Assembly (NCBI GenBank): GCA_945868215.1
Contig: CAMBLN010000013.1
Location: forward strand, 1 to 33,438
DNA length: 33,438 bases
Reading direction: 5' to 3'
Source: Opitutus sp. GAS368
GTDB taxonomy: Bacteria; Verrucomicrobiota; Verrucomicrobiia; Opitutales; Opitutaceae
The translations under genes were made by a program, and so were the position numbers. Shown piece after piece: positions 162-15,422 of the stretch (positions are counted from its first letter, which is position 1; each line of letters starts with the position of its first letter). The notes under the pieces were generated by a model. It saw only the letters and a list, made by a program, of their open reading frames with translations, did no database searches and was not told the origin of the DNA.

Positions 162-182
162 AAGAGAAATTCAAGAAGTTGA

Positions 183-205
183 GGCCCGACCCCATTGGCA
201 CCGAC
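183..205 (+). repeat. Dispersed GGCCC-GACCC element, copy A (single unit)
   Basis: The 11-mer ggcccgacccc (183-193) is preceded by an AT-rich lead (161-182) and continues as one 18-base unit starting GACCC (188-205). It shares 10 of 11 core bases with the copies at 13426 and 15005. Here the second unit is absent and the sequence runs straight into the truncated spermidine-synthase frame. Confidence 0.6.
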
Positions 206-12996: not shown

Positions 12997-13377
12997 GTGG
13001 TTTTTGACACCAATTTTCTCGTGTCACTGGCAGGGCAAAGCAAACGCCTGCCTCGTTCCCGCGCCCTCGCTTTTCGAGACAGCCATGCCGCAGCCGCGCC
13101 CTACATCGCTCGCGTAACCGCCTTGGAGTTTGAGGCCGGGTTCGCATCTGCCGCGCAAGCCGTTCCCCACCTCTCTCGATTCACGATCCTTCCGGTGGAT
13201 GAAGACGTCTGGAGGATCGGCACCGTATTGTTTCGCGAATTGCGCCGCGACGGCCTGCCCATCGGATTGGCCGATACGCTCATTGCCGCGACGGCCCTTG
13301 CTTACGGACTTCCCCTCGTGACAGACAACGCCGAACACTTCCAACGCGTGCGCGGTCTCAAGGTTTATAGTTTTTAG
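12997..13377 (+). CDS. PIN-domain ribonuclease toxin (VapC type)
   Basis: The 126-residue protein starts at a GTG three bases after the antitoxin stop. The PIN acidic residues are visible: Asp in MVFDTNFLVSL, Glu in ALEFEAGF, Asp in LADTLIAATA, and Asp in TDNAEHF. These form the metal site for RNA cleavage in VapC toxins (family knowledge). The length is normal for a complete toxin. It is the first of three toxin-antitoxin-like pairs in the window. Dispersed repeat copy B follows about 50 bases downstream. Confidence 0.9.
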   Translation: MVFDTNFLVSLAGQSKRLPRSRALAFRDSHAAAAPYIARVTALEFEAGFASAAQAVPHLSRFTILPVDEDVWRIGTVLFRELRRDGLPIGLADTLIAATALAYGLPLVTDNAEHFQRVRGLKVYSF

Positions 13378-13425
13378 CAAAACTCGCTGAAACCCGTCAG
13401 CTGAGGTTAAAATACAACAACACTC

Positions 13426-13466
13426 GGCCCGATCCCATCGGCGTTTGGGACCCCATCGGCGTTTGG
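13426..13466 (+). repeat. Dispersed GGCCC-GAYCC element, copy B (two 18-base units)
   Basis: ggcccgatccc begins the element. Two tandem 18-base units occupy 13431-13448 and 13449-13466 and differ at one base (GATCCC or GACCCC, then ATCGGCGTTTGG). An AT-rich lead (ggttaaaatacaacaaca) precedes it. It lies in the convergent gap between the vapC-like and methyltransferase genes. Confidence 0.7.
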
Positions 13467-13480
13467 GGCCGTCGGCGGCT

Positions 13481-14095
13481 TCAGGTGGTGCCGGCGGGTT
13501 TTTGCACGATGACCACCAAGTGTTTTTCGGGCCACTGGTCGTATTCAAGATGCCGGCACACGCAGCCGCATTCGCCAACGAGGGCGAGAGTGCGAGGTAT
13601 GCCGGGCACGCCGTAGTAAATTTCCGGCCCCATGGCCGTGTCGGTTTTCTCCTCCGGGCGGTCGAGGCCCGCGGTGGTGAAAATGAACACGCCTCCCGGT
13701 TTGAGCGCGTCGAGGATTTTGCGCATGACCGGTTCCTGCGCGGCTAGCGGCAGGTGCCACAGGCTGTCCCAGCCGGTGATGAAGTCGTAACGCCGAGTGA
13801 ACTCCCAGGTGCAGACATCGGCATGGTGAAACGGCGTCCGCGGATGCCGTGCGCGGGCCAGCTCGATCATGCGGGCCGACACATCGAGTCCCTCGACGGC
13901 CAGGCCGTGCGCTGTCAGCAGCTCGATGAAGCGCCCGCTGCAGCCGCAGCCCAGATCGATGGCTTGTCCGCCACCGCCGGCGAGAAACGCGAGGGCGCGC
14001 CGGTGCGCGGCGAGTCCGTTCTTGCGATTGAAGCCGTCGTCGTTCCAGACATCGGCGATCTGGTCGTAACTTTGGCCGGTTTCATGAGGAGTCAT
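13481..14095 (-). CDS. Class I SAM-dependent methyltransferase
   Basis: The 204-residue protein begins at an ATG (14093-14095). The SAM-binding motif I is AIDLGCGCSGRFIELL, followed by the acidic post-I region VEGLDVSARMIELAR, motif II/III region YDFITGWDSLWHLP, and LDALKPGGVFIFTT. The N-terminal YDQIADVWND opening is typical of Methyltransf_11/25-type small-molecule methyltransferases. The substrate cannot be inferred. It sits downstream of a two-gene membrane operon in the same direction but separated from it, and between dispersed repeat copies B and C. Confidence 0.88.
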   Translation of the reverse strand: MTPHETGQSYDQIADVWNDDGFNRKNGLAAHRRALAFLAGGGGQAIDLGCGCSGRFIELLTAHGLAVEGLDVSARMIELARARHPRTPFHHADVCTWEFTRRYDFITGWDSLWHLPLAAQEPVMRKILDALKPGGVFIFTTAGLDRPEEKTDTAMGPEIYYGVPGIPRTLALVGECGCVCRHLEYDQWPEKHLVVIVQKPAGTT

Positions 14096-14111
14096 TAAGC
14101 AACTTACATCC

Positions 14112-14519
14112 TTACATTGATTGGTCGGCGGGTTTCTTTTCAGTCTTTAGTAGGATCACGCCCAATGCGGCCACGCCCAGCATGACCAAGGCTCCGGACG
14201 AATAGGCGCTGAAGAAGTCGAGTGAAGCGGCTGGCATCATCTGCTTGAACTCTTCGGTCATGAGCAGGCACGCGAAGGTGAAGACGATGAAGAACGTGAG
14301 TCCGGCGCCCGACACCAAGACGACTCCGACATCGCGTCTCCATCGCTGGAAACGATTCATGACCAGTCCCAAGCCCATAAAAAAGAGAGCGGGCAGACTG
14401 AACCCGGCCACTATTCCCCACTTCGCCAGCGTCGGTTGATTAACGAAGGCAAGGAAGCAGACCATATAGACGAAGAATCCGCCGATAATATGGAATATGA
14501 TCCCCGCGACCTTACGCAT
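14112..14519 (-). CDS. Membrane protein of unknown function, distal gene of pair
   Basis: The 135-residue protein has about four hydrophobic segments: IIFHIIGGFFVYMVCFLAFV, then IVAGFSLPALFFMGLGLVM, then VVLVSGAGLTFFIVFTFACL, and GALVMLGVAALGVILL. It ends KTEKKPADQSM. The start ATG (14517-14519) overlaps the stop of the upstream gene by 8 bases, which indicates translational coupling. I do not recognise a family. Confidence 0.7.
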   Translation of the reverse strand: MRKVAGIIFHIIGGFFVYMVCFLAFVNQPTLAKWGIVAGFSLPALFFMGLGLVMNRFQRWRRDVGVVLVSGAGLTFFIVFTFACLLMTEEFKQMMPAASLDFFSAYSSGALVMLGVAALGVILLKTEKKPADQSM

Positions 14520-14907
14520 TTTCGGCTCCTTTGGGCGGAACGAAGAAGGCCGTCGCCTTCGGGCGGAACAGGAAAAACACGATGACCGCAAAGATGACGA
14601 AGCCCGGAATCATGGCTGCTTTCATCGGCGCGGTGGCGAGTCCGATCACGAAACCGATCACGCCCCAGATTACATAGAGCAGGCGGGCCCAATTCTTTCC
14701 CTTGAGCATGGCGAGGCCGCAAACAATCGTGATCAGCAGTCCGATGTAGCTGATTGCGTGTTGAACCGGGATGGGGAGAGGGCTCTTGGCCATCAGCTCC
14801 AGCACCGTGGCATTGTTGAGCATGGCAGTCGTCGAAATCAGCGAAATCACGCCGATGACGATGAGAATCCATGAGATGACGGTGATGGAGGTCGGTCGTT
14901 GGTTCAT
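14512..14907 (-). CDS. Membrane protein of unknown function, proximal gene of pair
   Basis: The 131-residue protein has four hydrophobic segments: VISWILIVIGVISLISTTAM, then AISYIGLLITIVCGLAMLKG, then LLYVIWGVIGFVIGLATAP, and MIPGFVIFAVIVFFLF. The KGKNWARLLYVIWG motif after helix two is common in small bacterial membrane proteins of the DUF2127/YrhK-like kind. The tail ATAFFVPPKGAENA resembles the C-terminus of many verrucomicrobial hypothetical proteins. It is translationally coupled to the next gene. The function is unknown. Confidence 0.7.
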   Translation of the reverse strand: MNQRPTSITVISWILIVIGVISLISTTAMLNNATVLELMAKSPLPIPVQHAISYIGLLITIVCGLAMLKGKNWARLLYVIWGVIGFVIGLATAPMKAAMIPGFVIFAVIVFFLFRPKATAFFVPPKGAENA

Positions 14908-15004
14908 TGTGTGTTGGTTTTGTTTCTGGTCTAAAGTTTGAGGCTAACCCTGACGAGCTCGGTCTGACTTCGGTGGCTGGCGCTTCGATTAATTACCAAT
15001 TTAC

Positions 15005-15045
15005 GGCCCGACCCTGTCGCTCGACGTGACCCCCTCGCTCGACGT
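15005..15045 (+). repeat. Dispersed GGCCC-GAYCC element, copy C (two 18-base units)
   Basis: ggcccgaccct begins the element. Tandem 18-base units lie at 15010-15027 and 15028-15045 and match at 16 of 18 positions (GACCC, two variable bases, then TCGCTCGACGT). The AT-rich lead is ttcgattaattaccaattta. The layout matches copy B but the unit core is different. Confidence 0.7.
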
Positions 15046-15099
15046 CGGTTAAGAAGAAATATAGCCTGCGACACGCGACTGTGGGGAGGGGGGCGGAGC

Positions 15100-15113
15100 G
15101 CCTGCGAGCAGGC
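15100..15113 (-). terminator. Hairpin just past the ParE-type toxin stop
   Basis: GCCTGC-GA-GCAGGC forms a perfect 6-bp stem within a GC-rich stretch (ggcggagcgcctgcgagcag), immediately downstream of the toxin stop on the minus strand. It has no T tract. It could be a mRNA 3'-end hairpin or a dispersed repeat. Confidence 0.35.
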
Positions 15114-15116
15114 GGC

Positions 15117-15422
15117 CTACGGGGTTGGCGGGCGTTTGAGTTGGCGCTGGATCCACTTGGGGTCGCGGCGGCAGTCGATGACCCGGTGAACAGTGACTTC
15201 GTCGTTGGCGATTTTGTAGTAGATCGCGTGAGGGAAACGGCGGGCCAGCATCCGGTAATGATCATGTCTGATCGGATGGGTGCCAGCATACAGCACGAGC
15301 GAGTCGATTTCGGCGAAGAGACTGTCGAAGAAGTAATCTCCTACTCCCAGGCTCTGGTGATCGTAAAATGCCCGGCCGGCGGCCAAGTCTTCAATCGCGG
15401 GAGTAAGGATCCGCAGTTTCAC
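15117..15422 (-). CDS. RelE/ParE-family toxin
   Basis: The 101-residue protein starts at a GTG (15420-15422) that overlaps the antitoxin stop as GTGA. The fold signature is VKLRILTPAIEDLAAGRAFY at the start (a helix after the first strand), then SLFAEIDSLVLYAGTHP, then RMLARRFPHAIYYKIANDEV and VHRVIDCRRDP. This is the ParE/RelE_toxE pattern. Family members either inhibit gyrase (ParE) or cleave mRNA (RelE); the sequence alone does not decide which. The overlap with the antitoxin gene indicates tight coupling. Confidence 0.9.
   Translation of the reverse strand: MKLRILTPAIEDLAAGRAFYDHQSLGVGDYFFDSLFAEIDSLVLYAGTHPIRHDHYRMLARRFPHAIYYKIANDEVTVHRVIDCRRDPKWIQRQLKRPPTP

Follow-up and report, generated by a model that had tools for sequence, protein, structure and literature searches.

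The locus raises the question of which kind of element could place an AT-rich lead in front of a GC-rich head and then repeat, in tandem, part of that head together with the sequence beyond it. In the window, by which we mean the whole 33,438-nucleotide stretch of Opitutus sp. GAS368 analysed here, heads of the form GGCCCGAYCC at 183, 13426 and 15005 lie on the same strand (+) behind AT-rich leads, and tandem 18-base pairs begin at 13431 and 15010, both as the original prediction had described them (Table 1). The pairs, 13431-13448/13449-13466 and 15010-15027/15028-15045, are identical at 17/18 and 16/18 positions, respectively. An 18-shift match of at least 16/18 is found at these two sites only in the whole 33.4-kb window, both times on a head, while a 300-kb sample of the genome contains 3 such sites; Tandem Repeats Finder, run at its lowest threshold, listed neither window pair. 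Site 183 is a single unit with no tandem copy, and to the eye its core at 194-204 is similar to the NTTGGCTCG cores found in sister genomes. The head at 13426 follows the end of the PIN-domain gene by 48 bases, while the 3' end of the methyltransferase gene is reached 15 bases past the array. The best named relatives of this methyltransferase indicate Opitutaceae as the family and Verrucomicrobiota as the phylum. Just past the 15005 array, at window positions 15077-15126 on strand -, stands GTAGGCCGCCTGCTCGCAGGCGC, which we take to be a classical GTAG-type REP-like sequence and to which similar copies exist in G000:C122, G000:C68, G097:C89 and G117:C204.

Table 1. Parts of the three window sites and the two genes beside the 13426 array.
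Feature	Coordinates	Strand	Remarks
Solo end, single unit	166..204	+	lead 166-182, head GGCCCGACCCC 183-193, core-like ATTGGCACCGA 194-204
PIN-domain protein gene	12997..13377	+	PF01850, E 1e-12
AT-rich lead AAAATACAACAACACTC	13409..13425	+	
Head GGCCCGATCCC	13426..13436	+	counterpart at sister-genome transposase ends is GGCCTGACCCC
Core copy 1, ATCGGCGTTTG	13437..13447	+	
Truncated head GGACCCC	13448..13454	+	start of unit 2
Core copy 2, ATCGGCGTTTG	13455..13465	+	
Methyltransferase gene	13481..14095	-	convergent with PIN gene; PF13649 and others
AT-rich lead TTAATTACCAATTTAC	14989..15004	+	
Head GGCCCGACCCT	15005..15015	+	
Core copy 1, GTCGCTCGACGT	15016..15027	+	
Truncated head GACCCC	15028..15033	+	start of unit 2
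Core copy 2, CTCGCTCGACGT	15034..15045	+	

The sites are not free-standing 18-base elements. Leads of these kinds, together with the head GGCCTGACCCC, flank genes for Y1/HUH transposases of ~320 aa in sister genomes, in inverted orientation and pointing outward; where both sides of a gene were seen, the ends point outward and usually carry the same lead on both. A scan of 85 loci covered 170 gene ends, of which 126 have a head (at most 2 mismatches) and 44 do not, the latter including contig edges and some spurious reading frames. For the 164 gene ends long enough for a proximity test, TGACCCY lies within 150 nt at 115, compared to 2 of 86 stretches taken 300-450 nt out, and the strict form GGCCYGACCCC is present at 49/164 gene ends, compared to 1/86 control stretches. 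The window leads belong to the same kinds. The lead at 13409-13425 is of a type shared with the AAATACAACAATACTC lead at G041 and G200 transposase genes, with 91% identity over 35 bases between 13408-13442 and G041:C2:621393-621427, and the lead at 14989-15004 is, by eye, of the TTAATTGCCCATTTAC kind that occurs near G190 and G097 transposase genes. The GGACCCC junction of the 13426 array is found again in L214, where it adjoins a transposase gene.

Transposase genes of this kind were recovered by protein search in 67/100 family genomes, so the kind is common, and a Y1_Tnp search found the domain in 21/28 relatives. For two of the transposase proteins the domain listing at E up to 1 shows Y1_Tnp only, with no entry for the C-terminal HTH or Bac_DnaA_C domain of TIRYT transposases, and the solved structures gave no significant match; matches were present in 14 plasmid records, all of them below 60% identity. 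At L239 (G075:C1:722800-726200), three such transposase genes stand head-to-tail, the last two match starts being 836 bp apart. Short 'MPQSLS' Y1 transposases, our first suspects, were dropped as they looked different, and integron attC sites, weighed by eye only, were dropped once the transposase genes had been found. The GAS368 genome itself, a draft of 220 contigs that is 99.82% complete, gave three weak Y1_Tnp matches and no match to a cognate transposase at E<=1e-20 (4 candidates), so that the window copies look like orphans. The Y1/RAYT-type transposase that had been suggested as a thing to look for is thus present in sister genomes, with no such match in the genome from which the window comes, and the expectation of mobile-element sequence tied to such an enzyme, in a layout beyond simple REP copying, was right. 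We propose, with moderate confidence and although the lack of a cognate match in this genome speaks against it, that the window sites are orphan ends of TIRYT-type Y1/HUH elements, from which they would descend, and that their arrays arose by cutting at a set distance and joining of 5'-truncated copies. The observation itself holds good, agrees with an established class of elements and, through its unusual layout, points to something characteristic of them.

An information profile of the 126 ends carries signal between about -17 and -1, with up to 1.43 bits in the lead, and no more than 0.09 bits from +4 on; T occupies +2 in 121/126 ends. This profile is no test of the heads, which served to find the sites. 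No hairpin was found in nine sequences, whose fold z-scores of -1.30 to 1.63 are no better than those of shuffles, and paired-column covariation, including head-core pairing, gave no clear signal over 117 ends. The strongest column link is between lead positions -8 and -1 (MI 0.54). It does not follow Watson-Crick pairing and would be in keeping with a 4-nt direct repeat within the lead, at a 7-nt step, e.g. TAGC-ATC-TAGC.

The near-zero information from +4 would be expected if the core were simply target DNA beside the insertion, with nick-and-fill repair re-copying the head suffix and the flank in each round. The same is suggested by a pair of G044 copies that differ in their cores although the 14-nt lead and the head are identical, an indication that cores are not always inherited. 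Against this explanation stands a locus in G095, where TTTTGCTTGGT closes a gene-flanking array and the base directly after it is where homology to G073, whose locus is uninterrupted, begins again, as does homology to a second copy within G095. The core was thus either brought in by the element or formed during insertion. This one informative empty-site comparison shows that the core is not native flank. It was proposed originally that the element duplicates its own flank, and of this the duplication of itself, i.e. of its own terminus, holds, while the native origin of the core does not in this comparison. As seen from L316 and L315, the target is directly duplicated over ~197 bp on the flanks of the G095 insertion, which G073 lacks, and this insertion was therefore not a simple event.

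Some cores are, moreover, shared despite different flanks, as in L210/L211 for 11 nt and in L208/L239 for 12 nt, after which the sequences diverge. Identity at +9 to +13 runs 0.78, 0.60, 0.50, 0.38 and 0.25, with about 0.25 expected, in 60 pairs that were picked for identity at +2 to +8 and are not mutually independent. We regard a core of target DNA as rather unlikely on these grounds. Further comparisons yielded no empty site for 13426 or 15005 among methyltransferase orthologues (contexts of six) or genus window regions, and no clean one in the flank searches for L212 and L238; for L312 empty loci were found, but the insertion is rearranged. At that locus, compared with L313, two facing transposon ends enclose different DNA in G095 and G073, and in G132 and G039 only 35 and 52 bp lie between the flank matches; it may be an exchangeable cargo site.

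The arrays themselves are informative on how units are added. At 22/126 ends the sequence just outside the head contains a perfect direct repeat (minimum 10 nt), compared to 6/599 control windows from the same flanks (Fisher p about 6e-13; rank test p 0.0006), and four of the six control repeats are at L214 and L254, where extra copies sit in the flank. Parsing split each unit into two parts, a prefix taken from the outer sequence and a suffix taken from head or lead, with a minimum core of 7, so that shorter edges could be missed. The 28 arrays hold 50 units, of which 37 parse cleanly and 13 were dropped for flank/head mismatch or over-long units. In the 37 units the outer edge is nearly fixed at 11.1 nt past the head (sd 1.26, range 9-14), whereas the inner edge is ragged, with 0 to 37 nt of head or lead included at the start (mean 6.3, sd 6.64). 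Unit length is irregular, spanning 11 to 48 at gene-flanking ends, and the units are equal in none of the 15 multi-unit arrays; the fixed 18-base period suggested by the window pairs is therefore not a property of the family. Since arrays are present in G003, G005, G013 and G049, genomes of one or two contigs, assembly error is unlikely.

The window pairs were read as truncated units by eye. On the 13426 array the parser recovers no more than 3 nt as a suffix of the array's own head (GATCCC vs GACCCC), and it fails on the 15005 array, where the first core base and the last head base differ between units; a suffix of 6 nt, as at 15028-15033, is the commonest length among parsed units (6/37). 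Outside the family and within the same phylum, 44 ends at 22 loci (two ends cut short) were inspected by eye, with eight showing a repeat and their cores likewise chosen by eye. L358 UP, whose genome belongs to the same order, gives an edge of 9-11, while L361 DN, L364 UP, L376 DN, L378 DN and L379 UP, from other families of the phylum, have edges of 4-6 nt, their units taking in between 3 and 55 nt of head/lead. A simple fit was lacking for L378 UP, a more complex end with its edge at 7-8, and in L364 DN parsing failed for two of the three units.

The arrays could also be products of ordinary slippage during replication of GC-rich repeats, in which the transposase plays no part, given that tandem repeats arise that way everywhere, that runs of GACCCC are low in complexity and that 13/28 arrays have one added unit only. 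Like a core of target DNA, this explanation would keep the TIRYT identification, only the mechanism being different. However, slippage copies whole units and is thus a poor fit to a near-fixed outer edge, ragged starts, unequal units and short overlaps, the join overlap being -1 to +1 nt in 30/37 units (a raw count with no chance expectation). Nor does it sit well with the side on which repeats occur, since they lie on the outer side at 22/126 ends and on the lead side at 1/124. We therefore consider slippage an unlikely origin of the arrays.

The exact motif has 8 sites in the GAS368 genome vs 7 of the reversed pattern, and the spaced pattern GGCCCGAYCC-N13-GAYCC matches there only at the two window sites (13426, 15005), while a head excess is seen in the sister genomes G041 (11 vs 3 reversed) and G097 (15 vs 4 reversed). 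The genome search originally proposed for the motif thus returned an excess in some sister genomes, but rarity in the source genome. Summed by hand over 13 genus genomes, the total is 85 vs 73 reversed, which makes the head alone weak evidence for a family, and exact-head counts were discarded as too weak a proof of one. Among the 79 of these 85 sites that were read (six in G202 were left out), 23 have a 20-nt lead of at least 55% AT by hand count, three of them in the GAS368 genome and not all intergenic; lead types such as AAATACAACAATACTC and TGTATCCATGTAAC are common to several. In 200 family genomes the spaced pattern gave 46 matches vs 25 reversed (hand tally), a result of little weight, as several matches are near-identical sequence across genomes, as might be expected of a conserved gene. 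One GAS368 head, L052 1651 (G000:C98:10150), is followed by a near-mirror image, GGCCCGACCCCCGGTGGTCGGGCC, and the 12-mer GTTTGTCACTTA has 10 counts, over both strands together, in a 355 kb sample of this genome.

An iteron-like site for a replication or regulatory protein, which had also been suggested and would account for short direct repeats between genes, is very improbable with a unit length that varies within arrays (0/15 equal) and with such ends at both sides of transposase genes. Equally remote are chance matches in a GC-rich genome, as the genus-wide and own-genome head counts might by themselves imply, in view of lead and head together at transposase genes, the AT-led sites in sister genomes and the fact that the window's only two 18-shift pairs of at least 16/18 both fall on heads.

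We return to the proposal of orphan TIRYT-type ends that are cut at a set distance. Under this model an end would consist of a lead (~17 nt, specific to the transposase lineage), a head ending in TGACCCC and a hypervariable core of ~11 nt, the outer edge of which would be the element terminus. Cleavage by the transposase would most likely be on a single strand, at a set distance measured outward from TGACCCC (about 11 nt in the window's family, about 5 nt in several others of the phylum). At this cut, further copies of the end would be joined on, all sharing the 3' side it defines but raggedly truncated on the 5' side, so that a full unit is followed by truncated ones, and the 18-base pairs of the window would be two such additions of about 6 nt head plus 12 nt core. 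The pattern of the arrays fits repeated action at one site, from which we infer cleavage at the edge, after which truncated ends would be joined on or copied anew. According to PMC8266576, cleavage by a Y1 enzyme yields a 3'-OH and a 5'-tyrosine link, and to the latter a different 3'-OH can be joined.

A more general and more tentative proposal is end-reiteration of TIRYTs, in which the cut may be placed past TGACCCC by a lineage-specific ruler of about 11 or about 5 nt, in any sequence, with 5'-truncated copies repeatedly added. Within it, joining could possibly require little microhomology, and termini might grow and change like the product of a stuttering polymerase, a picture we put forward with some reserve. 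If true, end-reiteration would be a mode of end processing for which the literature examined holds no description among HUH transposons. The cut position derived from the arrays, +11 vs +5, is a precise and testable prediction, and the arrays would be a sequence signature of past transposase action in genomes that lost the gene. The proposal also bears on how ends are recognised and cut, as PMC6006769 reports no REP-like structures near transposases of subclass 2.1.

Among known systems, TIRYT/TIRtron elements come closest. These were named together with a GGGGWSAS motif (Di Nocera et al. 2013, PMC3733652), and 20/26 TIRYTs are placed in TnpAREP subclass 2.1 (PMC6006769). Shared with them are terminal inverted repeats on either side of a Y1/HUH gene, as observed in sister and family genomes, the absence of an identifiable hairpin, the occurrence of solo copies and clusters, and GGGGWSAS itself, which at the transposase ends here takes the form GGGGTCAG on the opposite strand. 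On that strand the heads in the window are GGGGTCGG, GGGATCGG and AGGGTCGG and are off GGGGWSAS by one, two and two bases; the resemblance to GGGTCGGGCC-type sequences noted originally agrees with the published motif of TIRYT ends (PMC3733652), but only with one to two mismatches in the window copies. Two features of the elements here are absent from what the available sections of PMC3733652 and PMC6006769 say of TIRYTs/TIRtrons, namely a hypervariable core whose outer edge is nearly fixed, and arrays of 5'-truncated units. The RAYT/TIRYT/TIRtron/TnpAREP/IS200 literature searched, which included few subscription papers and some sources in part, held no account of truncated terminal arrays.

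GTAG-type REP/RAYT (TnpAREP) REPtrons have a related transposase (NF047646 REP_Tyr_transpos, 66.3 bits, below the cut-off of 80), inverted copies at both gene ends and dispersed orphans in common with the present elements, which differ from them by having neither a GTAG or GTGG foot nor, by sequence, folding and covariation, a palindrome. Characterised REPtron enzymes cut beside REPs, mainly at CT (PMC8266576). The Y1 transposase domain is shared with IS200/IS605 as well, where the cut site is also set relative to a subterminal structure (PMC6006769 and PMC8266576, each in part); those elements, however, have hairpins and, according to the text available of PMC2817692, no terminal inverted repeats, whereas the ends here are inverted and no hairpin was found in them. 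Similar in layout to the arrays are the tandem REPIN clusters of Pseudomonas fluorescens SBW25, in which tandem units by RAYT genes include flanking sequence. In the part of PMC3116915 that describes them, these are whole, near-identical and larger REPINs, in contrast to the units found here, which are mostly 11-25 nt long and truncated on one side only.
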